This document shows, in pieces, positions 6,497 through 37,123 of a DNA stretch of 64,000 bases (the first letter of the stretch is position 1; each line of letters opens with the position of its first letter). Position numbers and translations under genes: made by a program. The notes below the pieces were generated by a model that did not search any database, had not been told where the DNA came from, and saw only the letters and a program-made list of their open reading frames with translations. The stretch spans positions 310,001 through 374,000 of the forward strand of contig NZ_SOGJ01000023.1 in NCBI RefSeq assembly GCF_004402375.1. The letters run 5' to 3'. The DNA comes from Cryobacterium breve (lineage in GTDB: Bacteria > Actinomycetota > Actinomycetes > Actinomycetales > Microbacteriaceae).

Positions 6497-6526
6497 CGAC
6501 GAAATCAGGTCGGGCTGACGCTGGGC

Positions 6527-6865
6527 TTAGCTAGCGCGCGTGAGGCGAATGGTCCAGGTTTCAGGACCGTTCTCGAGGTAGGAGATGAGGAACTCGCCGG
6601 GGCGGTTGCTCTCGAGCTGGCCGAGCAGTGGCAACGGATTGTGTGACGCGACCAGATCGAGGGCGAAACCAGGCTTGATGGAGCCGAGGGCACCGAAAAT
6701 TGCCGCGTGCCGGATTGCATGCGGGATCGGGCGGGAATCTAAGACGATGTTGCCAGTGTCTTCGTGACCGCAAGCGCAGGCATGTCCGTCTGGAGCCGTA
6801 ATGGTTGCCTCGGCATCGACGGCACCGGGGCGGCTGGAGGACAGGCTGATCGGTTCGACGGTCAT
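6527..6865 (-). CDS. DUF2249 domain protein
   Basis: 112 aa, soluble. The C-terminal ~75 residues match DUF2249: LDSRPIPHAIRHAAIFGALG, then the PLPLLGQLE and WTIRLTR end strands. A short N-terminal leader carries a CACGHED cluster (two Cys and a His). DUF2249 proteins are common next to nitrite and NO reductase genes in bacteria but their biochemical role is not established. AAGGAG seven bases before the ATG at 6865 supports the start. It is the first gene of the minus-strand run DUF2249, NnrS-like, nirK; 30 bases separate it from the NnrS-like gene. Confidence 0.85.
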   Translation of the reverse strand: MTVEPISLSSSRPGAVDAEATITAPDGHACACGHEDTGNIVLDSRPIPHAIRHAAIFGALGSIKPGFALDLVASHNPLPLLGQLESNRPGEFLISYLENGPETWTIRLTRAS

Positions 6866-6994
6866 GGTTTTCTCCTTCTGGCCGGGTCGGATGACCCTCA
6901 GGAATTACTTTAGATGATATGTATCCTTTTAACCAAGACGATCGCCCGGTGGTGAATGCCGGAGTCGGAATCGAGCGGTGGAAAAGAGGATCAA

Positions 6995-7339
6995 GTGGCA
7001 ACCAGGGTGTGCGCGAAATCCGAGCTTGGGCTCGGCGAGGCAATCAGGGTAATGGTCGACGGCGTGGCGATAGCCCTGGTAATAGACAGTGTCGGCAATT
7101 GCTTCGCGCTCGGCGACATGTGCTCGCACGCCGACATTTCCCTGTCGGACGGCTTCGTGGAAGGCGACGAACTGGAGTGTTGGGCTCACGGCGGCCGGTT
7201 CGAACTCTCCACCGGTCGGGCCCGAACTCTGCCGGCGTCCGAACCGGTTCCGGTCTACCAGGTCACGATAGTGGACGGTGACGTCTACGTCGACGTAAAC
7301 AACCAGGTCGACATGTCGGCCTACCGGGCCTCGAGCTAG
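6995..7339 (+). CDS. Rieske-type [2Fe-2S] ferredoxin
   Basis: 114 aa from the GTG at 6995 (GAGGA just upstream); an ATG at 6956 would add 13 residues. CSHADISLSDG near residue 45 and CWAHGGRFEL near residue 63 give the Cys-X-His ... Cys-X2-His ligand set of Rieske ferredoxins of the NirD/biphenyl-dioxygenase type, with the usual FALGDMCSHA lead-in. It should carry electrons in the cytoplasm; the partner is not in the window. It is transcribed away from the DUF2249-NnrS-nirK operon across a short AT-rich divergent region (6866-6994), so it may share nitrosative control with it. Confidence 0.85.
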   Translation: MATRVCAKSELGLGEAIRVMVDGVAIALVIDSVGNCFALGDMCSHADISLSDGFVEGDELECWAHGGRFELSTGRARTLPASEPVPVYQVTIVDGDVYVDVNNQVDMSAYRASS

Positions 7340-7378
7340 GTTCTGCTCACACTCGATGCGGCTCGGCCGAGTTTCGGC

Positions 7379-8185
7379 TCAGCCAGGGATGGTTTCCGGC
7401 GCATCGGTCCAGTCCGACGGCAACTCCACAATGCATAGGTGCGGTTGCACGAATGGCCTCAAACGGATGTCGTCGCCGTCGTGGCCGAGCGACCGCGCGA
7501 GGCCCTTCATAAGGCCCAGATGCACTGAGCACACCACGGCGGGATTCTCCTTCGCTTCCGCCCGGAACGGGCACCCGGTCAGCACGATGGATCCCTTGCC
7601 AGCCTGCAACTCGGGCGCGAAGCCGATCTCTGTGAGCACACGCAGCAGCGGCGGAACCACGTCGGCGGCAGGCGTATCGGTGCCGAATGCTTGGGTGGCC
7701 GGCGCAACGGGAACCGGTACGCGGGTGGCCGACCCGTCAGTGGCCTGCTCGCGAGGGCCGGGCTTGCCGGCACCTGGCTCCGCGGGGATCACGGCATCCG
7801 CCACGGCCGCGTACTGCGCCGACCAGCGTTCGCCGGCCCGCACGGCTCGAGCACGGCCTCCGTCGTCGTCCTCGGCGATCACTGCGGCGAGGGCCTCCGT
7901 GAGCTGCTGCTGGGCGGTTTCGGTCGGTAGCGGCGCCGCGATCGCGCTGAAAAGCACGTGCGGGCGTCCCCGCCGCCCGGCTCTGGCAATGTGGCGTAGC
8001 ACGAGCCCGGCCGTCTCGAGGTGCTCCAGGTGAAAGCGCGCCGTGGTGATGTGCAGTCCCAGCGCCGTGGCAACCGTGCCGACGTCGAGGGGCACTGCAG
8101 ACTCGGTCAGGAGAGCCAGTGCACGACGGCGCGGCTCACTGGCCAGGGCGGCATGATGGGCGTCGTTCTGCGTGGTCGTAACCAT
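7379..8185 (-). CDS. Winged-helix regulator with C-terminal cysteines
   Basis: 268 aa. Residues ~10-75 form an ArsR/SufR-like winged helix (EPRRRALALLTES, then TARFHLEHLETAGLVLR). The C-terminal part has three cysteines spaced C-X13-C-X31-C, starting at GCPFRAEAKENPAVVC and ending at HLCIVEL. This recalls SufR-type regulators that bind an Fe-S cluster through C-terminal cysteines. Beside nitrite and NO reductase genes, an Fe-S or NO-responsive role is attractive, but cluster binding is not shown. It converges on the Rieske gene, ending 40 bases from it. A middle segment (~residues 130-175) is low-complexity and Ala/Pro-rich. Confidence 0.72.
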   Translation of the reverse strand: MVTTTQNDAHHAALASEPRRRALALLTESAVPLDVGTVATALGLHITTARFHLEHLETAGLVLRHIARAGRRGRPHVLFSAIAAPLPTETAQQQLTEALAAVIAEDDDGGRARAVRAGERWSAQYAAVADAVIPAEPGAGKPGPREQATDGSATRVPVPVAPATQAFGTDTPAADVVPPLLRVLTEIGFAPELQAGKGSIVLTGCPFRAEAKENPAVVCSVHLGLMKGLARSLGHDGDDIRLRPFVQPHLCIVELPSDWTDAPETIPG

Positions 8186-8725
8186 GCGTTTACAGTAGCA
8201 GCGTACGGTTAAAGCGTGGTGAGTTTGTGGTCACCAGTCGACGTGACACATCTTGGACAGGGCGAGCAGCCGTCAGTGCCCAGCGACTTGGCATTCACCA
8301 CAAGACAGACCCGTCGAATCTTCGAACCGCCGGCCCTATGCCGGGCTAGCCGACACCCCGTTGGATGCGTGACCAACTCGCGTTGGCTGACTGTTCCTGC
8401 CGTGGTGTGCGCCGGGGCCGAAATGTGCCGTCAGCGTGCCGCTGATGTTCACCCGCGGCGCGTTGGCATCCGAGCCGACCCCAGGTCGTGGCGATAGAAC
8501 GCAAACGCTTCTGGGTGTTAAGCTCCCGGGCAAAGGCCGACAAACCACTGCGTGTGGAAACATTTCGCCGGACGATATACTCGCGCTCATCGACCGGCTC
8601 ACCACCAGCGCTTCTGCATCGATCGAAGAGGAAACGGCGCGGGCTGTGTCTCTCGGTGGGGCGCGACCGCGGAGTCGTCTCTCCCGTTCGCACGGGGATG
8701 GCCTCGCCCTGACGTTCGCGCCCGT
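8186..8725. other. Gene-poor gap, possible hipA-like fragment
   Basis: No intact gene. The plus frame near 8565-8715 reads DDILALIDRL and then SLGGARPRSRLS, faintly like the GGARPKA motif of HipA kinases but without the rest of the protein. I treat it as at most a remnant. Nothing else in the gap is convincing. Confidence 0.2.
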
Positions 8726-9043
8726 TCATGGGCTCGAAACCGGGCCGTGTCCGGTGTTAGCCAGGCCGCCATCGATCGGAGATCGTTCACTATCGGCAGA
8801 TGATCCAGGCAGATACGAGCGCGCGATTGCGACACCGACGAGGAGGATCATAACCAGAGCGCTGATCGGGATGAGGTACATGGCTCCGAAGCCCACAACC
8901 GCCGGCCAGATCGGTTCAGGACCATTCAGGCTGGCCCACTGTTCACCGCGGGCCCAACCTATATCGACGTAAACATAGACCCCGAGCAGGGCGAATATGC
9001 TCAAGCCGAGTGCGCCTGCCACACCAATAATCCAAAGTTTCAC
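8726..9043 (-). CDS. Small two-TM membrane protein
   Basis: 105 aa from the GTG at 9043, which has a strong purine-rich SD (GGGGGAGGG) six bases upstream; longer frames start without one. Residues 2-24 and ~50-75 are hydrophobic segments, separated by an acidic/aromatic loop (YVDIGWARGEQWASLNG), with a polar tail ending in SSP. No family recognised. It stands alone between two gaps. Confidence 0.6.
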   Translation of the reverse strand: MKLWIIGVAGALGLSIFALLGVYVYVDIGWARGEQWASLNGPEPIWPAVVGFGAMYLIPISALVMILLVGVAIARSYLPGSSADSERSPIDGGLANTGHGPVSSP

Positions 9044-26347: not shown

Positions 26348-27037
26348 CTAGCCGCGTGGGTCGCCGGTTCTCTCATCGAGTGGCTTGTCGACGTCATCCT
26401 CAACCATGTCGCTGAAAACTTCGAATGGTGACTCGACGTCACCGCGCCATGCTTCGATGCCTTCGCGGATCGCGAGCACAGCGACGATGAGAGCCGCAGC
26501 GGAATCGGCCCAGGCCCAGCCGAAGAGGCTGTTGAGCAGCAGGCCGATGAGGACGGTTCCAGAGAGATAAATGCACAGCATGAGTTGCTTGGCATCGGCC
26601 ATTACGCTTTTTGAGCCGAGTTCGCGGCCGGTCCCGAATTCGAACCAGGCCAGCATTGGCATGACCAGCAGGCTGAGGGTCGCAATGCCAATACCGAGCG
26701 GGCTGTGGTCCACGTCTTGCGCCCCGGTGAGCGCGAGTACGGAGTCCGTGATCACATACGCGGCTAAGGCAAAGAACGCAATCCCGATCACGCGGACTGT
26801 CGCCTTCTCCCAGCGCTCCGGGTCTTTCCGGGTGAACTGCCACGCAATGGCTAGAGCCGAGCCCACTTCTACGATCGAATCGAGGCCGAATCCGATCAGT
26901 GCCGCGGATGACGCCAGCGCGCCGGCCCAGATTGCTACGACAGCTTCGATCACGTTGTAGGTGATCGTGAAGGCGACAATGAACCGTACCCGGCGGTGGA
27001 GGACTGCCCGGCGGGCATCGGTCATCGAGATGATCAT
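26348..27037 (-). CDS. Cation diffusion facilitator-type metal exporter
   Basis: 229 aa, six TM helices, without the cytoplasmic C-terminal domain of full-length CDFs. ALIGFGLDSIVEVGSALAIA holds the conserved Asp of TM2 and LLNSLFGWAWADSAAALIVA the TM5 Asp pair region, as in the short CDF-related proteins that accompany ArsR sensors in Actinobacteria. Likely exports Cd/Pb/Zn-type ions. Its ATG overlaps the stop of the CmtR-like sensor (ATGA). Confidence 0.82.
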   Translation of the reverse strand: MIISMTDARRAVLHRRVRFIVAFTITYNVIEAVVAIWAGALASSAALIGFGLDSIVEVGSALAIAWQFTRKDPERWEKATVRVIGIAFFALAAYVITDSVLALTGAQDVDHSPLGIGIATLSLLVMPMLAWFEFGTGRELGSKSVMADAKQLMLCIYLSGTVLIGLLLNSLFGWAWADSAAALIVAVLAIREGIEAWRGDVESPFEVFSDMVEDDVDKPLDERTGDPRG

Positions 27038-27387
27038 CGGGTCTCCTCACAGCAGCCGGCGATCGAGCAGGCCGGGTCGACGCAGGGTGCGTTCTCCCTA
27101 ACGGCCAGCGTCACGTCGACCAGCGCGGTAAGCGCACGGCCAAGGTGTGGGTCTGCGATTTCGTAACGAGTCTGTCGCCCCTCAGGTTCTGCCACGACGA
27201 TGCCGCAGTCTCGCAGGCACGTGAGGTGGTTGGACACGTTTGAGCGGCTGAGTCCAAGGTCACGTGAGAGCAGGGCCGGGTAGCTCGGGCCATCCAAGAG
27301 GGTCACAAGGATGCGAGAACGCGTAGGGTCCGCCATTGCGCGACCAAGCCGGTTCATCACGTCAATACGAGTAGCAATAGTCAGCAT
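27034..27387 (-). CDS. cmtR: CmtR-like ArsR-family metal sensor
   Basis: 117 aa from the ATG at 27387, giving the CmtR-type start MLTIATRIDVMNRLGRAMAD. The recognition region RSNVSNHLTCLRDCGIVV has the two cysteines of the alpha-R site that bind Cd/Pb in mycobacterial CmtR, and the C-terminus adds CVDPACSIAGCC, supplying further thiols. Metal binding should release DNA and induce the exporter coupled downstream. A dyad lies 10 bases upstream of the start. Confidence 0.87.
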   Translation of the reverse strand: MLTIATRIDVMNRLGRAMADPTRSRILVTLLDGPSYPALLSRDLGLSRSNVSNHLTCLRDCGIVVAEPEGRQTRYEIADPHLGRALTALVDVTLAVRENAPCVDPACSIAGCCEETR

Positions 27388-27396
27388 CCGATGACT

Positions 27397-27414
27397 ATAC
27401 ATCGGTCGCTGTAT
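27397..27414. promoter_or_regulatory. Candidate CmtR-type operator
   Basis: ATACA-N8-TGTAT inverted repeat immediately upstream of the cmtR-like start, the size and AT-type arms expected for an ArsR/SmtB-family site. Autoregulation inferred. Confidence 0.5.
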
Positions 27415-27872
27415 CAACTGGTGCGGAATGGGCCGATGTGCGGCGCGACCACTCATGCGGAATGCCGTTTTCCGTCGCGGAAGGTCCCTGCGATCGCGGA
27501 TCGTCGGAGGCGTTCGCGGTCGACTTGATGCCCAGCGAAGGACGCTAATGCGGTCACACTGAACACGGGATCACCGTGTTTACCGAGCACAAGGGCAACC
27601 ATGAGAGAGGCACCGCTCTGTGGGGATATAGGCCACTGCGGTCGTGAGATGCGCCTCAATGTCCGGGGCGTCGGCCGGGTGGCGGACCGGTCGACGGAAT
27701 CCCTGCCAATGTCCGTGCGCAGGTCCCACGGGTCAGGTCGCTTGCCTAAGGTTCGTGTCGTACTGACGGCGGACCTGGCTACCCCCTCCCCCCATCTGTC
27801 AGAGTCTCGTAATGTATCGATCGTTGTGCTCGACGCGCGATGTGGCTTGAATGATCCCGTCGAGAGGAATCC
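27415..27872. other. Gap between cmtR and the rSAM operon
   Basis: No supported gene. Long open frames on both strands are Arg/Ser-rich. It must contain the promoter of the following operon; I see GAGAGGAA as SD just before the first ATG but no clear -35/-10 pair. Confidence 0.45.
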
Positions 27873-28409
27873 ATGTCCACAGCGGCAAACCCACTGGTCG
27901 ACGCCCCGGTGGTGGCACGCTCCACGAGGATTATGATCGCTGCGCTCCGCTGCGGCGTCGCACTCATGTGGATCCAAAATGTTGCGTGGAAGGTGCCACC
28001 GGACTTTGGCCGGGCGAACAACGACGGCTTGTACTTCTGGGCCAGCCAGGCGGTTTCCCATCCGGTTTTTGCACCATATTCAACCTTCGTCGACGTGGTT
28101 GTGCTGCCGAACATCGTTGTCTTTGGATGGTTCACGCTCCTTATCGAGGGCGGGCTGGGTGCCTTCCTACTCATCGGCCTCGCGACCAGGTTCTGGGCCG
28201 TCGTCGGTATCGGCCAAACACTGGCAATCACACTTTCGGTTCTGTTCGCCCCCCATGAGTGGCACTGGTCGTACTATCTGATGGCGCTCGCGCACTTAGC
28301 GCTCTTCGCAACTGCAGCCGGGCGTTGCTACGGAGTCGACGGGCTCCTGCGCCGGTCGTGGTCGGCGTCTTCCGGACGTCCCTCGCGGCTCATGTTGTGG
28401 GTGTCGTGA
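27873..28409 (+). CDS. DoxD/DoxX-like membrane protein
   Basis: 178 aa, four TM helices. LRCGVALMWIQNVAWKVPPD at the start, then a large loop with NNDGLYFWASQAVSHPVFAP, and LLIEGGLGAFLLIGLATRFW, match the DoxX/DoxD-like family (DoxD is the small subunit of thiosulfate:quinone oxidoreductase; DoxX-like proteins also join thiol redox complexes). First gene of a run of six; a GTGA overlap couples it to the next. SD GAGAGGAA supports the ATG. Confidence 0.75.
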   Translation: MSTAANPLVDAPVVARSTRIMIAALRCGVALMWIQNVAWKVPPDFGRANNDGLYFWASQAVSHPVFAPYSTFVDVVVLPNIVVFGWFTLLIEGGLGAFLLIGLATRFWAVVGIGQTLAITLSVLFAPHEWHWSYYLMALAHLALFATAAGRCYGVDGLLRRSWSASSGRPSRLMLWVS

Positions 28410-28798
28410 ACGGCACAGTGAGTACCTACGACCGCGGGGCGGTCGTGATCGGTATTGCCGCGATCCTTTTTGCGGGTTTCGTGTTCGGCACCACACTCCC
28501 CACACAGTTTCGTTTCGTGAACATCGGACCTGTCGGCGCAAGTGTCCTCATGGCCGGTGGCATTCTCTCGATCGTGGGCGGCATCATCCGGCGAAGGCTG
28601 TTGCGCTTGATCGCAGGCGCGCTGCTCACGGGAGCATCCCTTGTCCAACTCGTGGGGCTCGCCCTATCGGTCCGGCCACTCGGCGGTGACGCCTCGGCGA
28701 TGGCGGTGGCCGGCGGCATCGGCATCGGACTTCTCGCACTTTCGTTCTCACCACCTCCCCCAGCCCAGCCGCACGAACCGACGAAAGGCAGACCGTGA
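28406..28798 (+). CDS. Small four-TM membrane protein of the rSAM operon
   Basis: 130 aa from the GTG at 28406 (overlaps the preceding stop, GTGA). Four hydrophobic segments separated by short Arg-containing loops (GGIIRRRLLRLIAGALL in the middle), ending in a Pro-rich tail. No family recognised. Its last bases overlap the GTG of the acyl-CoA dehydrogenase-like gene, so it is locked between two translationally coupled genes. Confidence 0.75.
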   Translation: MNGTVSTYDRGAVVIGIAAILFAGFVFGTTLPTQFRFVNIGPVGASVLMAGGILSIVGGIIRRRLLRLIAGALLTGASLVQLVGLALSVRPLGGDASAMAVAGGIGIGLLALSFSPPPPAQPHEPTKGRP

Positions 28799-29970
28799 TC
28801 GACGTTGTCGAACTACTGGATCCCGTTGTGGAGATCGCCCGCAAGCATGCGCATGACGTGGATGCTGCGGGCCGTTTTCCCGAGGAAGCGGTCGCCGCGC
28901 TGCGGTCATCGGGACTGCTCGGACTAACGCTTCCGACCGAGGTCGGCGGGCTGGGCGGAGGACCGCGGGAGCTTGTGCTGGTGGCCGGCGCCCTCGCCGG
29001 AGCATGCGGGTCGACCGCGATGATCTACCTCATGCACGTGAGCGCCGCGATGCCGGTCGCTGCGGCGCCGCCCACTGGGATGCCGGGACTGCTCGAGAAT
29101 CTCGCGAGCGGCCGCACGCTCGCCTCGCTGGCATTCTCCGAAGCGGGTTCGCGCTCCCACTTTTGGGCGCCCGTTTCGCGAGCAACAACGAGGCCAGGAG
29201 GCATCCAGATTTTCGCGAAGAAGAGCTGGGTCACGTCGGCCGGCCACGCGGACGTCTACGTTCTCTCCACGGGCACACCGGATGCGGAGGGTGTGGACCT
29301 CTTCGCGATCCCCGCCGGTACGACCGGCCTTTCGATCGATCGCCCATGGAAGGGCATGGGATTCCGTGGGAACTCCTCGAGTCCGATGACCGTTGACGTC
29401 GACACGACTGAAGGCTTCCGCTTGGGCGCGGCGGGCGGGGGGTTCGATCTGATGATGGGTCATGTTCTTCCGTGGTTCAACCTGGGCAACTCTGCCGTGT
29501 CGATCGGTCTCAGCCGTGCTGCGGTCGATGCCGCGGTGCGGCACACGATGGGAGCGCGGCTCGAGCACCTCGATGAGAGCCTGTCATCATTGCCGACCAT
29601 CCGGGCACAGCTCGCGAAAATGTCGATTGACCTCGCCAATGCGAGCGCCTACCTCGACGTGGCCGCGGGAAAGGTCGCCGCTCCCGAAGAAGACACCCCA
29701 CTTTTCGTACTCGGCAGTAAGGCCTCGTCAAACGATGCTGCACTACGTGTCACGGATGTCGCGATGCGCGTGTGCGGCGGCGCGGCGTTCTCTGAGCACC
29801 TGCAGATCGACCGCTACTTCCGCGACGCGCGAGCGGGACACGTGATGGCCCCGACATCCGACGTGCTCTACGAGTTCTACGGGCGGGCGATCACCGGCAG
29901 ACCCCTCTTCGATGTACCGAAGGCTGCTTCCGGGGCCCCACAGGCTGAGCAGGCCGGGGCCGCAGCATGA
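28795..29970 (+). CDS. Acyl-CoA dehydrogenase-fold flavoprotein lacking the catalytic Glu
   Basis: 391 aa, full-length ACAD fold: N-terminal helices, the LAFSEAGSR and AKKSWVTSAGHADVYVLST FAD/substrate regions, and a C-terminal four-helix bundle with CGGAAFSEHLQIDRYFRDAR. In ordinary ACADs the segment after this carries the catalytic Glu (YEGTS); here it reads AGHVMAPTSDVLYEF, with Ala at about 352. This is how ACAD-fold flavin monooxygenases of the DszC/N-hydroxylase type look, so oxygenation rather than alpha,beta-dehydrogenation is likely. GTG start overlaps the previous stop. Confidence 0.85.
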   Translation: MIDVVELLDPVVEIARKHAHDVDAAGRFPEEAVAALRSSGLLGLTLPTEVGGLGGGPRELVLVAGALAGACGSTAMIYLMHVSAAMPVAAAPPTGMPGLLENLASGRTLASLAFSEAGSRSHFWAPVSRATTRPGGIQIFAKKSWVTSAGHADVYVLSTGTPDAEGVDLFAIPAGTTGLSIDRPWKGMGFRGNSSSPMTVDVDTTEGFRLGAAGGGFDLMMGHVLPWFNLGNSAVSIGLSRAAVDAAVRHTMGARLEHLDESLSSLPTIRAQLAKMSIDLANASAYLDVAAGKVAAPEEDTPLFVLGSKASSNDAALRVTDVAMRVCGGAAFSEHLQIDRYFRDARAGHVMAPTSDVLYEFYGRAITGRPLFDVPKAASGAPQAEQAGAAA

Positions 29971-30779
29971 CCACGCCACTCGTCATCGGCTCCGTTGCCT
30001 ACTCGCCCAACGTCATACCGATCTGGGAAGGGTTGCGAGACTACTTCGCCGAGACGACGACACCGATCGACTTCGTGTTGTTCTCCAACTACGGCAGACA
30101 AGTTGATGCTCTCATCTCCGGGACTCTCGATCTGGCTTGGAACACAAATCTCGCCTGGGTGCGCACCGTCGCCCAGACCGACGACGCCTGCCGTGCACTC
30201 GCATCGCGGGACACGGATCTCAACTTCAAGACGGTGTTCGTGGCCCGAACGGGGAGCGGATTCACGTCGCTGCAGAGCCTTCAGGGCCGCCGCCTTGTTC
30301 TGGGATCGCGTGATTCGGCCCAGGCGGCGATCCTTCCGGTTCACTTCCTCCGCGAGGCCGGCCTCAGCGAGGGAGACATCAGGATCACCCGGATCGACAG
30401 CGACGTGGGAAAACACGGTGACACTGGTCGAAGTGAACTCGATGCTCTGCGCGCAGTACTCGACGATCGAGCAGATGCCGCCGCGATCGGCATCAACACG
30501 TGGAATGCCATCGGGCGGGGCGAGTTGCTGCCCGGGGCATTCGAATCGTTCTGGACGTCGCCCGAATACAGCCACTGCACCTTCACAGCGATGCCATCGC
30601 TCGCGATCGAGCGTGCGGATCCATGGGTTGCCAATCTGCTCGCCATGGATTGGAAGAATCCCCAGCATCGACCGATCATGGAGATGGAAGGCCTGCAGGC
30701 CTGGGTACCTCCGAGACTCGAGGGCTACGCGTCCCTCGTCGCAGCCGTTAGCGAGCAGAGAATTGCCCCGAGATGGTGA
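29967..30779 (+). CDS. PhnD/PBP-II-fold protein without signal peptide
   Basis: 270 aa. The fold is that of PhnD/SsuA/NrtA-type binding proteins: LVIGSVAYSPNVIPIWEGLR, LISGTLDLAWNTNLAWVR, LQGRRLVLGSRDSAQAAILP and ALRAVLDDRADAAAIGINTW. It begins directly with the first beta strand, without signal peptide or lipobox, and no ABC permease or ATPase follows, so it should act in the cytoplasm. The desulfinase DszB is a known enzyme built on this fold, also without export. No obvious nucleophilic Cys near the N-terminus. ATGA-coupled to the ACAD-like gene. Confidence 0.78.
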   Translation: MTTPLVIGSVAYSPNVIPIWEGLRDYFAETTTPIDFVLFSNYGRQVDALISGTLDLAWNTNLAWVRTVAQTDDACRALASRDTDLNFKTVFVARTGSGFTSLQSLQGRRLVLGSRDSAQAAILPVHFLREAGLSEGDIRITRIDSDVGKHGDTGRSELDALRAVLDDRADAAAIGINTWNAIGRGELLPGAFESFWTSPEYSHCTFTAMPSLAIERADPWVANLLAMDWKNPQHRPIMEMEGLQAWVPPRLEGYASLVAAVSEQRIAPRW

Positions 30780-31819
30780 CCACGAGCTCACTCGTGAGTC
30801 CATCGACTGCCGAACACACCGCGATGGGCGTCGTGCTCGACCTCATTGAAGGCATCGGGCGCGTACCGACCGGCGGAACGGTGACTGTCGGATTCGGGCA
30901 CGCGCACCGTGTTGCCGCCCTTGACCTCGTTGAGGCGTGGTGTGCCGCGACCGGCAATGAGATCGCAGTTGCCGCGCAATTGACCGTGACCGTTCGTCAC
31001 GGGCGAGCTCCCGACCCGCTCGCACAGCTCGACCCTGCTCAACGACCCGGGGCGCGGGTGTGGGTGTACACGAACTTCGACTGCAACCTCGCCTGCGACT
31101 ACTGTTGCGTTCGCTCGTCCCCGAAAGCGGCACGGCGGGCGATCGGCGCCGACCGGCTCCAGCAAATCGCGAGTGAGGCCGCCGACGCGGACGTCAGCGA
31201 ACTCATCCTCACGGGAGGCGAGCCGTTCCTTCTGAACGACCTCGATGATCTAGTGAACTCGTGCACCGACCGACTCCCGACGACACTGCTCACCAACGGA
31301 ATGCTGTTTCGCGGAACACGACTCGAGCGCTTGCGCCGAATGGATCGGTCTCGGCTGACCCTCCAGGTCAGCGTCGATTCGGCCACTCCGGCTATCCACG
31401 ACAGCCACCGCGGAACCGGGTCGTGGGCGAAGGCCGTCAACGGCATCCGCATCGCCCACGAGGAGGGGTTCCGCGTAAAGGTTGCTGCGACCCTCCCAGC
31501 CGATCAGATGCACGAGCTCGACCCATTCCACGTATTTCTCGACACCCTCGCAATCTCACGCGAGGATCAGGTCATTCGCGCGCTTGCGCACCGAGGAGTC
31601 TCCGACTCCGGCATCGAGCTCACGGTCAACTCGCTGATCCCCGAGGTGACGATCACAGCCGACGGTGTGTATTGGCATCCGGTGGCGGCCGATCACGACG
31701 ACCAGTTCGTGACCCGCGACATCTTCCCCCTTGCCGACGCGATCGCCGAAATCACCCGTCGGTTCGTCGCACACCGCCGCGCGGCTGACAGCGCCGCGGA
31801 GTGGTTCCCCTGTGCCTAG
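30773..31819 (+). CDS. Radical SAM protein with TusA-like N-terminal domain
   Basis: 348 aa. Residues ~15-75 resemble a TusA/SirA sulfur-carrier fold (DLIEGIGRVPTGGTVTVGFG, then LDLVEAWCAATGNEIA) but without the usual N-terminal CP motif. The radical SAM domain follows: C104-NLA-C108-DY-C111 is the CxxxCxxC [4Fe-4S] motif, with ELILTGGEPFLLND and LLTNGMLF. The C-terminus ends EWFPCA. Reductive cleavage of SAM would start a radical reaction; the substrate is unknown. ATG overlaps the end of the PBP-fold gene by seven bases. Confidence 0.87.
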   Translation: MVTTSSLVSPSTAEHTAMGVVLDLIEGIGRVPTGGTVTVGFGHAHRVAALDLVEAWCAATGNEIAVAAQLTVTVRHGRAPDPLAQLDPAQRPGARVWVYTNFDCNLACDYCCVRSSPKAARRAIGADRLQQIASEAADADVSELILTGGEPFLLNDLDDLVNSCTDRLPTTLLTNGMLFRGTRLERLRRMDRSRLTLQVSVDSATPAIHDSHRGTGSWAKAVNGIRIAHEEGFRVKVAATLPADQMHELDPFHVFLDTLAISREDQVIRALAHRGVSDSGIELTVNSLIPEVTITADGVYWHPVAADHDDQFVTRDIFPLADAIAEITRRFVAHRRAADSAAEWFPCA

Positions 31820-31831
31820 GTCGCCCGACCG

Positions 31832-32482
31832 ATGACAACTCTTGTTGTCATCGCCAAGGAGTGTCTGCCTGGCCGGGTCAAGACCCGACTGCACCCTGCA
31901 CTCACCTATGAGCAGGCCGCCGAACTCGCCGCCGCGAGCCTGGACGACACCCTCGCTGTCGCGCTTGCCCTCCCTGCGAACCGCCGAATTCTCGCCTTCG
32001 ACGGGGTTATCCCGCCGCCCGCCGCTGCAGACTTTGAGATCGTTCCCCAGATTTCCGGCACCCTCGACGAGCGTCTCTCGGCCATCTTCGATTCCCTCTC
32101 GGATTCGGTACTCCTCATCGGAATGGATACCCCGCAGTTGACCGCGGACCTGCTCGACCCGGTCTTCACCGAGTGGGACGACTCAACGGACGCCTGGTTC
32201 GGGGCAGCGCACGACGGAGGGTTCTGGGCTCTCGCCCTCGGCAAACCCACCCCAGGACTCCAGCGAGGCCATCTGATCCGTGGTGTCCCGATGTCCCGTC
32301 CTGACACCGGCGACCGCCAGCTCGCCCGTCTGCGCAACGCGGGACTGCGCGTACGTCACCTGCCATTGCTCACCGACGTCGATACGATTGAAGACGCTGA
32401 TGCCGTTGCGCGCGTTGCCCCGCACAGCCGGTTTGCGGCCACCTTCTTGGCGATGCGGCTCGAGGAGCCTGATATTGAATAG
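31832..32482 (+). CDS. DUF2064 glycosyltransferase-like protein (rSAM-associated transferase 1 type)
   Basis: 216 aa. VIAKECLPGRVKTRLHPALT is the start signature of the DUF2064/TIGR04282 family, named for its link to radical SAM/selenodomain proteins; LIGMDTPQLTADLLDPVF and GAAHDGGFWALAL hold the metal-binding Asp and the GG-W motif of this GT-A fold. It starts 12 bases after the radical SAM stop. The frame stays open after its TAG stop for another 62 codons ending in a TM-like stretch (see 32485-32671). Confidence 0.87.
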   Translation: MTTLVVIAKECLPGRVKTRLHPALTYEQAAELAAASLDDTLAVALALPANRRILAFDGVIPPPAAADFEIVPQISGTLDERLSAIFDSLSDSVLLIGMDTPQLTADLLDPVFTEWDDSTDAWFGAAHDGGFWALALGKPTPGLQRGHLIRGVPMSRPDTGDRQLARLRNAGLRVRHLPLLTDVDTIEDADAVARVAPHSRFAATFLAMRLEEPDIE

Positions 32483-32671: not shown

Positions 32672-32931
32672 TTCCGGCGGCATTCCGCCGTGCACCGAAG
32701 GATTCATCCATGACGGCACATTGCATCCGGTTGGGCACCTCACGTCGACCCTGCCCCGTTCGCGGTCCCTCGGCGGGCGATATACCGCTTCTCCTTCCGT
32801 TGATTGCGCACGATGACTGCACGGCCTCCTGACATCAATTGCGATTCGCGCCGTGGGGATAAAGTGGGGCCAACGATGGTCGCCTGGCATCACACCCACG
32901 TGTGAACGGTCAAGGGACTGGGAGGCAACCG

Positions 32932-34353
32932 ATGGACACCTTCCTCAGCACATTCCTCTCTGATGCCGCGGAACTTTCAGACCTAGCCACGCGCGTTCGC
33001 ACGGCCGGGCCGGTGCCGCTCGCCTCGCCACTTCCAGTCGCGGACCTTGCCCGAGACAGCATCGCGGCAGCCAAGCTCATGGCCTCCTTGCTTCATGTTG
33101 TCCGCACGGGAGCGCGTGATCCGAAGGCGAGCGAAGTCCCGCGGGTGAGCATTTCGCCTCACCTCGTCGCCGGCGCCTACCAGAGCGACAGACTGTTCCG
33201 GTGGAACGGGAGGCCCGCGCCAGCGTGGGCGCCCCTGTCTGGATTCTTCGCCTCGAGCGACGGCTGGGTTCGCACCCATGCAAACTATCCTCACCACGAA
33301 GCAGCTTTGCGCTCAGTTCTGGGGCTGGACGTTTTCGGAACCGCCGAGGCTGTCGCTCACGCGATTTCGCGCCGCAGCGCCCTCGACCTGGAGGATGAAG
33401 CAGCAGCTTCTGGTGCGCTCATCAGCTCGGTTCGCAGCCCGAGCAGTTGGATAGGACATCCTCAAGCCCAAAGCCTGACAACGGACCCCTTCATCAGCCT
33501 GAAGCAGCAGGCGGCAGACTCGTGCCTCCATAGCTTGGGATCGGCCGACAGTTTTGCTCCGCTGGAGGGCGTTCGGGTGCTCGACTTGACCCGGGTCATA
33601 GCCGGTCCGGTGGCCACTCGCAGTCTCGCCTTCTTCGGGGCAGATGTTCTGCGCCTCGACAGCCCCCGCATGCCGGAACTTCCGTGGCAATACCTCGATA
33701 CCGGGCAGGGGAAGCGGTCCGCTCTTCTCGACCTTGGATACAAACCAGATCGAGACTGCTTCGAACGACTGCTCATGCAAGCCGACGTTGTTGTTACGGG
33801 ATACAGGCCGAATAGCCTCGACCGGTTCGGCCTCTCTCCGGTCGAACTCCACGACCGCCATCCAGGACTCGTTATCGGGCGGGTGAGTGCGTGGGGCATG
33901 AACGGACCGTGGGCCGAGCGCCGAGGATTCGACAGTATTGTCCAAGCAGTCAGCGGCATCGCCCAGATCCACGCAGACGAAGCAGGTAGACCCGGTGCTT
34001 TGCCTGCCCAGGCTCTGGATCATTCCGCCGGGTACCTACTTTCCGCCGGGATCATGTCAGCACTTCGGCGTCGGCATCTGGACGGGCATGGTTGGACAAT
34101 CGACATTTCACTGGCCCGGGTCGCTCAAGAGCTACTCGCCCAGCCTCAATCCCCGCCAGCCGAAGGCGGCCGTTACGAGATCCGCACCGTGGTGGCGGAG
34201 ACGCCAGACGGGACTGTCACCTGTGCCGCACCTGCGATCAGCATCAAAGGCGGTCCGAATCGCTACGGGTGGATCGGCCGTCCGTGGGGCGCAGACCCGC
34301 CGGAATGGGCCGAGCCACGCCCCGCCGCAGGACCGGACGGGCCCATGAGCTGA
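32932..34353 (+). CDS. Class III (CaiB/BaiF) CoA-transferase
   Basis: 473 aa from the ATG at 32932 (GGGAGG eight bases before it). Residues ~10-190 form a degenerate first half containing GFFASSDGWVRTHANYPHHE; residues ~215-440 carry the conserved family core LEGVRVLDLTRVIAGPVATR, FGADVLRLDSP, GKRSALLDLG and ADVVVTGYRP. Such enzymes move CoA between acids or act as racemases. It follows the rSAM operon on the same strand but after ~450 bp, so membership is not assured. Confidence 0.83.
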   Translation: MDTFLSTFLSDAAELSDLATRVRTAGPVPLASPLPVADLARDSIAAAKLMASLLHVVRTGARDPKASEVPRVSISPHLVAGAYQSDRLFRWNGRPAPAWAPLSGFFASSDGWVRTHANYPHHEAALRSVLGLDVFGTAEAVAHAISRRSALDLEDEAAASGALISSVRSPSSWIGHPQAQSLTTDPFISLKQQAADSCLHSLGSADSFAPLEGVRVLDLTRVIAGPVATRSLAFFGADVLRLDSPRMPELPWQYLDTGQGKRSALLDLGYKPDRDCFERLLMQADVVVTGYRPNSLDRFGLSPVELHDRHPGLVIGRVSAWGMNGPWAERRGFDSIVQAVSGIAQIHADEAGRPGALPAQALDHSAGYLLSAGIMSALRRRHLDGHGWTIDISLARVAQELLAQPQSPPAEGGRYEIRTVVAETPDGTVTCAAPAISIKGGPNRYGWIGRPWGADPPEWAEPRPAAGPDGPMS

Positions 34354-34404: not shown

Positions 34405-34857
34405 TCATTCACGCGAAGTTCCCAGCGTTCCATGGCGTGGCGTGAGGTCCACCGCGTGCGGTGGTTGGGGAATGAAGTGGCAGACGGTGTCTGCTCCGCA
34501 GTCGGCCGGGTCGAGGCCTTGACTCGCGCTGATGAGGCGCTGAAGCTCTGCTTCGAGGAGCACGAGTGCGTGTTGTTGGCGGTGCACATCGTCAAGTTTC
34601 GTGAAGAGGAGGGTGGAGACGTGCTCGCACGGCACGTCACCGGCTTGGCGGATAGTGATGATGCTGCCGATTTCTGCCAGCGTCAAGGCTGCCATCTGGG
34701 CGGAACGGATGAATCTGAGCCGGGAGACGGCCGTCTCGTCGTACTGGCGGTAGCCATTGCCCTCACGGGCGGGGACGGGCAGCAGGCCGCGGCGTTCGTA
34801 GAACCTGATGGTTTGTGCGGTCACGCCGCTCGCGACGGCGAGGTCTCTAATCTGCAT
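34405..34857 (-). CDS. MerR-family metal-responsive regulator
   Basis: 150 aa from the ATG at 34857 (MQIRDLAVASGVTAQTIRFY). N-terminal MerR winged helix with YERRGLLPVPAREGNGYRQY, a long dimerisation helix and metal-site cysteines at VPCEHVSTLL and DPADCGADTVCHF (one upstream Cys, then C-X5-C), like the soft-metal MerR sensors. Divergent from the thioredoxin-like gene, with a MerR-type promoter of 19-base spacing between them. Ligand probably Hg, Cd, Pb or another soft metal. Confidence 0.87.
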   Translation of the reverse strand: MQIRDLAVASGVTAQTIRFYERRGLLPVPAREGNGYRQYDETAVSRLRFIRSAQMAALTLAEIGSIITIRQAGDVPCEHVSTLLFTKLDDVHRQQHALVLLEAELQRLISASQGLDPADCGADTVCHFIPQPPHAVDLTPRHGTLGTSRE

Positions 34858-34873
34858 ACTCTCATTCCACCAC

Positions 34874-34905
34874 TTGACCTTGCATCCCGGTGCAATGTTT
34901 ATGTT
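34874..34905 (+). promoter_or_regulatory. MerR-type promoter with 19-bp spacer and dyad
   Basis: TTGACC (34874-34879), then exactly 19 bases to TTATGT; the spacer contains the inverted repeat TTGCA-N6-TGCAA (34880-34895). The long spacer and central dyad are the hallmark of MerR-activated promoters. The ATG of the next gene is at 34912, so the transcript is nearly leaderless. Confidence 0.75.
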
Positions 34906-34911
34906 GAGTAC

Positions 34912-35232
34912 ATGGAGATCACATTGCAGTATTTCGACGGGTGCCCGAATTGGTTGGTCGCGGCCGAAAGGCTGGCGATAATCGCGGCAGAACAACCCGA
35001 TGTAATCGTGAAGCGTCGGTTGGTCGGCAATGTGGACGACGCGGAGGCTATCCACTTCCGGGGGTCACCTAGCATCCTCGTCGGCGCACTAGACCTCTTT
35101 CCCGATCCCTCGGCCGCAGTGGGACTCTCCTGTCGCATCTATGCCACCTCCGCTGGATTCGCTGGCGCCCCGACGCTTGACCAAATGCGCACAGCCATTG
35201 CCGCGAAACGAGTGCGTATTGAACCGCTGTAG
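34912..35232 (+). CDS. Thioredoxin-like protein of MerR loci (annotated alkylmercury lyase-like)
   Basis: 106 aa. ITLQYFDGCPNWLVAAERLA at the start, IHFRGSPSILVGALDLFPD and GLSCRIYATSAGFAGAPTLD are the signature of the small thioredoxin-fold proteins found next to MerR regulators in Actinobacteria. Single Cys at GCPNW rather than CxxC, plus a Cys in GLSCRIY. Such proteins are sometimes labelled alkylmercury lyase, but they lack the MerB catalytic set, so metal-thiol binding is a safer call. Controlled by the dyad promoter just upstream. Confidence 0.75.
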   Translation: MEITLQYFDGCPNWLVAAERLAIIAAEQPDVIVKRRLVGNVDDAEAIHFRGSPSILVGALDLFPDPSAAVGLSCRIYATSAGFAGAPTLDQMRTAIAAKRVRIEPL

Positions 35233-35291
35233 TTGGCGACGCACCATCCTCTGCCGAGGCGCGCATTGACTCTCACCTGAATTAAAAGCAA

Positions 35292-35308
35292 TACTATTGT
35301 AAATAGTA
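35292..35308. promoter_or_regulatory. BlaI/CopY-type operator 1 (TACTAT-N5-ATAGTA)
   Basis: Perfect TACTAT-N5-ATAGTA dyad (central part extends to TACTATT/AATAGTA), 29 bases before the YVTN protein start. It overlaps a candidate -10 (TACTAT) with TTGACT at 35266 upstream. Same 17-bp site as at four other promoters in the island. Confidence 0.75.
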
Positions 35309-35336
35309 GTTGCTTGACACTATTGATGGGAGTGCA

Positions 35337-36434
35337 ATGAACAGACGACGTGCAGTGGCTATGGGTGCAATCCCCCTTGTAATCGTGGCAGCCGGGGCAG
35401 CAATTCTGATGAGCACAGCCGATGACCCGGATGCCCGGGCAGCCCTCCATAAGGGCCTCGTGTCTGGGACGGTCTGGGTCGCCAACGAAGACGGATCCAG
35501 TCTGACTCTGATCGACACGGCGACGAACAAGGTTTCAACAACCCTGACCGGTCTCAAAAGCCCGCACAACGTTCAGGCCACAGCCGATGGGGATTCCGTA
35601 TGGGCTGTCAGTGGCACCACGTCCATGGCGATCAAGCTCGACGCTTCAACGCTGGCCGTCACGGGAATGGTCGCCACCGGCACCATGCCTGCTCACGTTG
35701 TCATCACTCCGGATCTCGCCACAAGTTACATAACCAACAACGCCGACGACTCCGTGACGGCAGTGAATGCCTCGACGATGCAGCCGATAACCACCATTCC
35801 CGTCGGAACAGGCCCCCACGGGCTTCGACCGAGTCCCGACGGAAAATGGATCTATGTCGCCAATATCGGCGGAACGACTTTGAGCGTCATCGATACCGCT
35901 ACCAACTCACAGGTCGCAGAGATTGAAGTCGGGACTGCGCCCGCCCAAGTGGCATTCTCGGCGGATGGCCGCTTCGTCTACGCCTCGCTCAGTGGGGAGG
36001 ACGCCATTGCCAAGGTAGACGTCTCCACCCGCTCCCTGGTAGGGAAGACCGCGGTCGGCCCCGGACCGATCCAAACGTTCGTGAGCCCGGACAACAAGTA
36101 CTTGCTCGTAGCCAACCAGGGCACGGACGACAAACCGGGCACAACAGTCTCGGTCCTCAGCGTCGATACGTTCGCAGTTGTGAAGAGCGTGAACACCGGT
36201 GACGGCGCTCACGGCGTCGTCATCGATCCGTCCAGTCGACACGCGTACATCACCAACATGGCGGCAGACACGGTCGCCGTCCTCGACCTGAAATCGCTTG
36301 CCGTCGTGGCACGTATCCCGGTCGGAGCCACACCGAATGGAATCAGCTTCTCCACGCAGACCCTCAAACCGACCTCGGAAACGAAGCTCGACCTCCCGGT
36401 GGAGTCTGGCAACTCGTCGACGATGGAGCATTAG
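35337..36434 (+). CDS. YVTN beta-propeller protein, membrane-anchored
   Basis: 365 aa. After a TM or signal segment (AVAMGAIPLVIVAAGAAILM, residues ~5-27) the protein consists of about seven YVTN-type repeats of ~42 residues, each with a variant of GT.P..V..SPDG...YV.N...(T)VSVIDT (e.g. GLRPSPDGKWIYVANIGGTT). Such propellers are surface or periplasmic scaffolds and are common in metal-resistance loci, sometimes with redox partners. First gene of the copper island and preceded by a BlaI-type operator. Confidence 0.88.
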   Translation: MNRRRAVAMGAIPLVIVAAGAAILMSTADDPDARAALHKGLVSGTVWVANEDGSSLTLIDTATNKVSTTLTGLKSPHNVQATADGDSVWAVSGTTSMAIKLDASTLAVTGMVATGTMPAHVVITPDLATSYITNNADDSVTAVNASTMQPITTIPVGTGPHGLRPSPDGKWIYVANIGGTTLSVIDTATNSQVAEIEVGTAPAQVAFSADGRFVYASLSGEDAIAKVDVSTRSLVGKTAVGPGPIQTFVSPDNKYLLVANQGTDDKPGTTVSVLSVDTFAVVKSVNTGDGAHGVVIDPSSRHAYITNMAADTVAVLDLKSLAVVARIPVGATPNGISFSTQTLKPTSETKLDLPVESGNSSTMEH

Positions 36435-36701
36435 GCAGTGTCGGGCGTTGGTTGCGCATTGTTTCCGGGAGGTTAAGACCGGACCAGGGGCGCGATTGCT
36501 TTTGACGCTTCCTGGATCTTGGCGTCGCCCTCTTCCCCGCCGGCAGCGACAGCGGCAACAATGCGGTAGCTCGTATGGGCCTGTGCCGCTCGATCCTGGA
36601 TTCCCGTTCGCCAGTGGCCGTGCCTCGTATTTTCGTGATTTTCCCCCGGGTGGTATGCCTCGAGTGCGAAGACCCACGCGGTGAAGCGCGCTGCGCCCAT
36701 G

Positions 36702-36752
36702 TTGACCGAGTACCCCCCTGGGGTATACCCTAAATGTACCCCCTGGGGGTAC
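36702..36752 (+). promoter_or_regulatory. copZA promoter with two CsoR-like operators
   Basis: TTGACC (36702) with TATACC 16 bases later. The spacer holds GTACCCCCCTGGGGTATAC (36710-36728). A second, perfect palindrome GTACCCCCTGGGGGTAC lies at 36736-36752. The C-run/G-run dyad with TAC/GTA ends is the CsoR (Cu(I)-sensing repressor) operator type. No csoR gene is in the window, so the repressor acts from elsewhere. Confidence 0.8.
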
Positions 36753-36793
36753 GTCCCGGCGGTTGCTTCGATCGCCGAGGAACGAAAGGAATC

Positions 36794-37123
36794 GTGAACA
36801 TTTTGTCGACGTTGACCGGGAAAAACCTTGGCCTTACCGACTCTTCCTGCTCTTGCGAGTCGCACGGGCACACATCCGAGCGCACTGCGGAACCCACCGG
36901 CATGACCACCACTTTCCAGGTGGCTGGAATGACCTGTTCTCACTGCGTGAACAGTGTGACGGCTGAAGTGGGCCAGGTTGCCGGAGTCGAAGCCGTGGTC
37001 GTTGACCTTGTTCCGGGCGGCGTCTCTGTGGTAACCGTCTCCAGCTCCGAACCCATTGATCCAGTCGCCGTGGCCGCCGCCATCGACGAGGCCGGTTACG
37101 AATTGGTCACGGCGACCCCATGA
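36794..37123 (+). CDS. copZ: CopZ-like copper chaperone (HMA domain)
   Basis: 109 aa from the GTG at 36794 (GAAAGGAA upstream); an upstream start at 36734 would lie inside the operator. A ~40-residue leader rich in Cys/His/Ser ([10 protein letters not shown]) precedes one HMA domain with the Cu(I) site GMTCSHCV and the EAGYELV end. It should hand Cu(I) to the coupled ATPase (ATGA overlap). The extra Cys/His leader is unusual for CopZ and may bind metal itself. Confidence 0.88.

Follow-up and report, generated by a model that had tools for sequence, protein, structure and literature searches.

Background

Two gene sets of Mycobacterium tuberculosis come closest to the system described here. 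In the first, which caps lipoarabinomannan with methylthioxylose (MTX), Rv0535 is the S-methyl-5'-thioadenosine (MTA) phosphorylase, Rv0539 (MtxS) makes polyprenyl-linked MTX and Rv0541c (MtxT) transfers the MTX, as stated in the excerpts of the published accounts on which we draw; one of these excerpts has the pathway start from MTA (PMC11127046). The second set, Rv1678-Rv1681, appears in excerpts of two further papers, one printing two Rv1679 peptides from a proteomics study (PMC5017210) and the other proposing Rv1681 as a tuberculosis urine marker and describing it as restricted to the M. tuberculosis complex (PMC4202705). We met no functional account of the Rv1678-Rv1681 families among the matches listed in open-licence PMC papers, which does not prove that none exists. 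Here we analyse a six-gene operon in a stretch of 64,000 nucleotides from Cryobacterium breve (positions 310,001 to 374,000 of contig NZ_SOGJ01000023.1), referred to below as the window. The operon carries the Rv1678-Rv1681 families, and in part of the related loci these genes stand beside MTX-type genes. Our tentative reading, to which we give a probability of about 0.45, is that the core operon acts as an accessory module in the conversion of MTA to a 5-thio-pentofuranose that decorates surface glycans, either MTX or something like it.

Composition of the operon

The operon occupies positions 27873-32482 of the window. Re-reading its layout from the sequence and the list of open reading frames (ORFs) bore out the six-gene unit with short junctions that the first-pass annotation had proposed: the first four junctions overlap by 4, 4, 4 and 7 bases, and the fifth is a gap of 12 bases. 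The genes are as follows.

27873-28409, + strand: DoxD/DoxX-like membrane protein (PF04173, 33.6 bits, cut-off 22.7), corresponding roughly to the N-terminal half of Rv1678
28406-28798, + strand: small membrane protein, GTG start, 4-base overlap with the DoxD gene (NF049986, Rv1678_C, 92.6 bits, cut-off 50)
28795-29970, + strand: flavoprotein of the acyl-CoA dehydrogenase (ACAD) fold without the catalytic Glu, GTG start, 4-base overlap (NF049984, Rv1679/FadE16, 651 bits, cut-off 600)
29967-30779, + strand: cytosolic PhnD-fold (binding-protein-like) protein, ATG start, 4-base overlap (NF049985, Rv1680, 483 bits, cut-off 400)
30773-31819, + strand: radical SAM protein, ATG start, 7-base overlap (NF049973, Rv1681, 'MoeX', 527 bits, cut-off 380)
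31832-32482, + strand: DUF2064 nucleotidyltransferase-like protein, ATG start, 12-base gap before it (PF09837, 63.9 bits, cut-off 25.8)

The second to fifth genes all score above the curated NCBIfam cut-offs of the Rv1678-Rv1681 families and follow the numerical order of those loci. The core genes are an already named set. For the second gene, starting at the GTG at 28406 is our choice; the ORF list starts this frame at 28259, and the NF049986 score was measured on the frame from 28259. In mycobacterial loci DoxD and its membrane partner form single frames of about 300 amino acids, and apparently the two genes are fused there as Rv1678 and split here. The two published Rv1679 peptides, as far as the excerpt of PMC5017210 gives them, resemble the ACAD-fold protein of the window at matching places when compared by eye.

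Recurrence of the core operon

A scan of one genome per species yielded 329 relatives of the radical SAM protein, and the locus counts given here use the best 80, with gene content taken from profile scans and not from gene calling. The radical SAM gene was accompanied by the PhnD-fold gene in 80 of 80 loci, by the ACAD gene in 71 and by DoxD in 67. Thirty of the loci are shorter than 20.5 kb; among the 50 of at least 20.5 kb the corresponding counts were 50, 47 and 48. The gene set is not confined to this strain, as its relatives are spread across Actinomycetota and also occur in Bradyrhizobium (locus L124). Recurrence across genera, which the first-pass annotation had named as a check for all six genes, holds for the core (radical SAM, PhnD-fold, ACAD and DoxD); DUF2064 is not fixed. 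Gene order differs between loci, a second group (Cryobacterium, Arthrobacter and others) showing the order ACAD, PhnD-fold, radical SAM, DoxD. Within Cryobacterium, the radical SAM gene was found above the cut-off in 11 of 25 genomes. Judged from these distributions, the core operon is probably an accessory gene set that moves between lineages.

Among 23 plasmid records with relatives, L127 was a close case and L126 a distant one with the complete set, H2 matched in part and others more weakly; L125 and L128 gave distant radical SAM matches only. The distant set, on a Miltoncostaea oceani plasmid, consists of DoxX, radical SAM, a GT2-GT87 fusion, a DUF2064-Nudix fusion, ACAD and PhnD-fold genes, and it adjoins selA, selB and selD, an AhpD-like gene and a radical SAM/SPASM gene (L126, 3733-18056). 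On the Mycolicibacterium vanbaalenii plasmid (L127, 1443-12960) the operon is accompanied by AhpD-like, deiodinase-like, glutaredoxin and MFS genes and CcdA, and by a TrsS/Tes-like radical SAM gene with a methyltransferase.

Linkage to methylthioxylose-type genes

The likeness to Rv0535-Rv0541c drawn here rests on published locus numbers and on gene order in relatives, not on comparison with the M. tuberculosis sequence. Of the neighbours within 8 kb of the core that carried no label at the outset, GT2 came first with 12 loci, followed by a GalE-like epimerase with 11, an ABC ATPase with 9, a response regulator with 8 and a histidine kinase with 7; DUF2064 was among the labelled genes and has no rank. 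A phosphorylase neighbour scored above the cut-off for MTA phosphorylase in L129 (353 bits against 306) and in L091. At least one of MTA phosphorylase, epimerase, GT2, DUF2064 and GT87 lay within 10 kb in 20 of the 80 loci, and at least two in 17, in varying orders, as counted with profiles built from the same loci and thresholds that we set. If independence is assumed, a one-copy gene would be expected near the core in fewer than one of 80 loci. A radical SAM tree was built from the window, L129 and 78 of the 80 loci, all but L113 and L117. On it, the state of having at least two MTX-type genes nearby changes at least 14 times, and that of having any such gene at least 18 times.

The most complete arrangement was seen in Arthrobacter (L099), where ACAD, PhnD-fold, radical SAM, DoxD, the small membrane protein, GT2, DUF2064, GT87 and MTA phosphorylase make up a single run with a short epimerase match after it. 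In M. pyrenivorans (L103) the operon lies between an MTA phosphorylase-epimerase pair and a GT2-DUF2064 pair, and in L054, L061 and L062 it adjoins an MTX-type cluster (L054 being without ACAD). The distant L129 reads ACAD, PhnD-fold, radical SAM, epimerase, GT2, DUF2064, GT87 and DoxD, with MTA phosphorylase on the opposite strand. Among deep relatives that are without ACAD and PhnD-fold genes, L136, L138 and L139 have radical SAM and DoxD together with GT2 and DUF2064; L135 and L137, on contigs of 5.4 and 13 kb, have radical SAM and DoxD only. In L130-L134, whose radical SAM domain belongs to a longer frame, DUF2064 adjoins it only in L132; the phosphoesterase-like domain of the long frame was named by eye for the genomes of L131-L134. 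Loci L035-L039, of deep-branching Actinomycetota, likewise show a phosphoesterase-like domain, named by eye, followed by a radical SAM domain in one frame.

MTA phosphorylase, epimerase, GT2 and DUF2064 follow each other in that order in all eight mycobacterial and Rhodococcus genomes examined (L152-L158, the eighth being that of L103 with L159). The C. breve genome itself has an MTX-like cluster elsewhere (L170, G000:C20), with a probable MTA phosphorylase, an MtxS-like GT2, an epimerase and a GT-C protein. The scores of this phosphorylase lie just below the cut-offs (276.8 bits against 306 and 254.8 against 274.85). Five MTX-like genes stood together in 5 of the 6 Cryobacterium stretches fetched. 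The L170 cluster also contains a molybdopterin-binding oxidoreductase with a cytochrome b561 domain (6522-7784) and a methyltransferase (8248-8940).

Co-occurrence at the level of whole genomes was also observed. An MtxS-like GT2 of at least 200 bits was present in 44 of 50 operon genomes that we picked from the 80 loci (43 at 225 bits, 46 at E 1e-25). In a sample of the phylum it was found in 55 of 396 genomes at 200 bits and in 51 at 225 bits; at the latter threshold it occurred in 9 of the 14 genomes with a radical SAM gene at E 1e-60 (Fisher p 6e-6, uncorrected for kinship).

The DUF2064 gene of the operon, a second copy in the genome

Twenty of the 80 loci had DUF2064 at most 10 kb from the radical SAM gene. 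It is not a fixed member of the operon, because none was found within 10 kb at L045 and L050, the two nearest relatives of the window; each of their two genomes has a single copy, which in G441 adjoins GT2. In a quick tree, the window copy, together with those of L047 and L049, branches among the DUF2064 proteins of Cryobacterium MTX-like clusters (SH-aLRT, the Shimodaira-Hasegawa-like approximate likelihood ratio test, gave 83-94, none of these branches being starred). There it is nearest to the copy of another species (G005) and not to the other copy of its own genome, which lies in the MTX-like cluster (L170, 8937-9704). Because the tree places it among the Cryobacterium cluster copies, the DUF2064 gene of the window appears to be a second copy from within the genus, gained by duplication or transfer. 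DUF2064 is present in all eight of the mycobacterial and Rhodococcus genomes, which says little alone; in M. simulans, M. simiae and M. attenuatum it lies about 18-20 kb from the radical SAM gene.

Evidence against the link and an independent pathway

Several observations weigh against the proposed link to MTX-type synthesis. The strongest are that 60 of the 80 loci have no MTX-type gene within 10 kb (as do 36 of the 50 longer loci), and that two Saccharomonospora isolates (G457, G460) and one metagenome-assembled genome (G449) carry the core with neither GT2 (at E 1e-25) nor DUF2064 (at E 1e-8). Six of the 50 operon genomes fell below 200 bits for GT2, four without a match (G449, G457, G460 and G462), one with a 145-bit fragment (G459) and Bradyrhizobium (G486) with 141 bits. 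Conversely, 8 of the 15 Cryobacterium genomes having the MtxS-like GT2 are without the operon, and 5 of the 14 radical SAM genomes in the phylum sample are without a strong GT2. The comparison of 44 of 50 operon genomes with 22 of 37 genomes of the same family, order or class (200 bits, p 0.002) is uncorrected for kinship, and one of the 37 (G187) carries the operon itself. All seven rows of the GT2 profile came from operon genomes, so that its scores lean to such genomes. Of the MTX-type genes, only DUF2064 is found within the operon of the window, and in L152 an amino acid permease, not GT87, adjoins DUF2064. Two further counts are of limited use: GT2 is present in 15 of 17 Cryobacterium genomes (7 of 7 with the radical SAM gene, 8 of 10 without), which is no test of the link, and strong GT2 copies number two or three in 4 of the 50 operon genomes against 0 of 26 genomes in the scan that covered Cryobacterium, which speaks for the link, though the comparison is weak, as the phylum scan scored seven candidates per genome. 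No account of a link between the operon and MTX was found among the matches listed in open-licence PMC papers.

The unlinked loci, the Saccharomonospora isolates and the assembled genome, together with the patchy occurrence of the operon in Cryobacterium (11 of 25 genomes), would fit a core that works on its own in cytosolic redox chemistry or catabolism, perhaps of an organosulfur compound or a xenobiotic. MTX-type genes would then adjoin it in some lineages because both sets are accessory and gather in the same regions. We regard this explanation as unlikely, if by no means negligible: the linkage recurs in varied orders and in far-apart lineages, a second DUF2064 copy closes the operon of the window, and L136, L138 and L139 have retained the glycosyl genes but not those for the ACAD and PhnD-fold proteins.

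The ACAD-fold and PhnD-fold proteins

In the ACAD-fold protein, the YEGT motif of solved ACADs, which we take to hold the catalytic Glu, is replaced by MAPT, and A352-P353-T354 is invariant in 23 of 23 aligned sequences. The loss of the catalytic Glu reported in the first-pass annotation is thereby upheld, and a role as acyl-CoA dehydrogenase finds no support in these residues. The DszC-like character proposed alongside found no counterpart in sequence kinship: the protein scored 42 bits on the DszC profile (cut-off 850) and 73 bits on that of SfnB (cut-off 431), both being distant profile relatives.

The PhnD-fold protein has an invariant GKHGD (148-152) and an invariant H203-C204 in an alignment of 26 sequences, and its predicted model has a mean confidence (pLDDT, predicted local distance difference test) of 92. 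Foldseek placed it nearest to PhnD, PtxB, ArrX, AioX and others, which bind phosphite, phosphonate or arsenate, and no DszB was among the 50 matches listed; kinship with DszB was rejected accordingly. Of the earlier description as a binding-protein fold without a signal peptide and likened to DszB, the first part stands, as judged by eye (the first strand begins at residue 5), and the second falls. A role as the binding protein of an ABC transporter likewise found no support, none of the ten scanned proteins of the window being an ABC permease or ATPase in addition to the missing signal sequence; an ABC ATPase lay within 8 kb in 9 of the 80 loci. Because GKHGD and H203-C204 are kept, the sequence suggests an enzyme or a specific binder and not a transport protein.

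These results bear on sulfur scavenging, in which a DszC-like monooxygenase would oxidise a thioether or sulfone and a DszB-like desulfinase would free sulfite, with help from the radical SAM protein. The ACAD fold without its base and the distant relationship to DszC and SfnB are in keeping with such a scheme, as are TlpA near 6 of the 80 loci, CcdA near 5 and ArsR-rhodanese near 4. It is nevertheless quite improbable, given how far the DszC and SfnB scores lie below their cut-offs, a PhnD-fold protein closest to phosphite, phosphonate and arsenate binders, and no recurring uptake system beyond the ABC ATPase mentioned.

The radical SAM protein

The radical SAM protein carries its CX3CX2C motif at C104/C108/C111, and C57, C112, C164 and C347 are conserved in at least 90% of 33 aligned sequences. 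The predicted model (pLDDT 87) has its nearest solved folds at a template modelling score (TM-score) of about 0.5, peptide maturases coming first and BlsE, DesII, viperin, MoaA and AbmM also appearing; several of these five act on sugars or nucleotides. The name 'MoeX' would imply a MoaA function, which was rejected as TIGR02666 gave 56.9 bits against a cut-off of 284, and membership of the ArsS family of arsenosugar radical SAM enzymes found no support either (TIGR04167, 41 bits against 300). The names FadE16 and MoeX of Rv1679 and Rv1681 are therefore unsupported by the residue and score tests.

The CPxP cysteine motif is the hallmark of TusA. The small N-terminal domain of the radical SAM protein, which the first-pass annotation had taken for a TusA-like sulfur carrier, lacks this motif in the alignment. 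It has no Pfam match, and the predicted model gives it an a-b-a-b-b fold. Aligned with the genome's own TusA by hhalign, it reached a probability of 21% (P 0.001), and the TusA-like 1pav was seventh of 23 PDB matches (E 0.25), unrelated proteins having better E-values. A TusA-type carrier was rejected on these grounds, and the two comparisons make the domain weakly TusA-like at best. The one TusA match of the genome lies away from the operon, together with ThiL and a TsuA/YeeE-like transporter gene below its family cut-offs (L143, 6317-9429, G000:C26).

The first-pass annotation had seen in the operon a pathway handling sulfur or selenium. The organic-sulfur half is plausible, because the recurring outside partners include MTA phosphorylase and the MtxS-like GT2. 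The selenium half, as far as it would run through selenophosphate, was rejected: the two SelD-like matches in the genome are below the cut-off of 125, and the better one (56 bits) is ThiL, the thiamine-phosphate kinase. An arsenosugar- or selenosugar-like pathway, in which the radical SAM enzyme would add 5'-deoxyadenosyl to As or Se and the phosphorylase, DUF2064 and GT2 would build the sugar, is very improbable with ArsS at 41 bits, TIGR04282 at 106 bits against 134 in the window and no SelD above the cut-off in the genome, even if DUF2064 and GT2 are related to TIGR04282 and TIGR04283, families that take their names from arsenosugar synthesis, DUF2064 of the Bradyrhizobium locus exceeds the TIGR04282 cut-off (157.6 against 134) and the Miltoncostaea relative adjoins selA, selB and selD.

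Proposed pathway

Returning to the operon as an accessory module of MTA-derived glycan decoration, we infer every chemical step, substrate and product of the following scheme from gene content. MTA phosphorylase would release a 5-substituted ribose-1-phosphate, of which the three cytosolic operon enzymes would alter the substituent or the sugar. The DUF2064 nucleotidyltransferase, of which the window holds its own second copy, would activate the product, and the shared MtxS-like GT2, epimerase and GT87 would attach it to a polyprenyl carrier and bring it to the outer side. The DoxD pair may handle electrons at the membrane. A more far-reaching version, which we consider doubtful, is that the operon makes an as yet unseen 5-substituted pentofuranose other than MTX, using radical chemistry to change a sugar or nucleoside that derives from MTA, and that a dedicated DUF2064 feeds it into the shared MTX machinery; in mycobacteria the same step would be hidden behind the FadE16 and MoeX names.

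If the link is true, the genetic tie to 5-thiopentose synthesis gives an unexplained gene set its first substrate class to test. The relatives of Rv1681 across Actinomycetota and in Bradyrhizobium also stand against the uniqueness to the M. tuberculosis complex that has been claimed for it. Whether MTX modification occurs outside lipoarabinomannan assembly is, in the excerpt used, a stated open point (PMC11127046). The MtxS-like GT2 in 51 of 396 phylum genomes (at least 225 bits) and the Cryobacterium clusters bear on this point.

Genes around the operon

The flanks at 26348-27456 and 34405-37123 encode a cation-efflux protein (PF01545), a small regulator-like ORF, a MerR-family regulator, a YVTN beta-propeller and an HMA-like ORF, the small regulator and the HMA-like ORF being named by eye. 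The operon possibly lies in a metal-response region. A gene for a class III CoA-transferase is located downstream (32902-34353).

Comparison with known systems

The three-component pentofuranose systems share a polyprenyl-linked pentofuranose, an epimerase and a GT-C protein with the proposed pathway; they differ in that the donor comes from phosphoribosyl pyrophosphate, whereas the MTX donor comes from MTA, and the excerpt used mentions no radical SAM enzyme (PMC11127046). Arsenosugar biosynthesis (ArsS, TIGR04282, TIGR04283) likewise combines a radical SAM enzyme with DUF2064 and GT2, but the proteins of the window are below the ArsS and TIGR04282 cut-offs, and the GT2 of L129 has 50 bits against 182. 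MTX capping of lipoarabinomannan by Rv0535, MtxS (Rv0539) and MtxT (Rv0541c) is resembled in that MTA phosphorylase, a GalE-like epimerase, GT2, DUF2064 and GT87 in some loci adjoin the operon or lie within it, and form a cluster in the C. breve genome. It differs in that the window operon holds only DUF2064 of this set, and in that radical SAM, ACAD and PhnD-fold genes are unmentioned in the excerpts of the MTX accounts used. To our knowledge, Cryobacterium is not known to make lipoarabinomannan. Compared with Rv1678-Rv1681 of M. tuberculosis, the operon has Rv1678 split in two and an extra DUF2064 gene at its end, whereas all four families score above their cut-offs and stand in the same numerical order.

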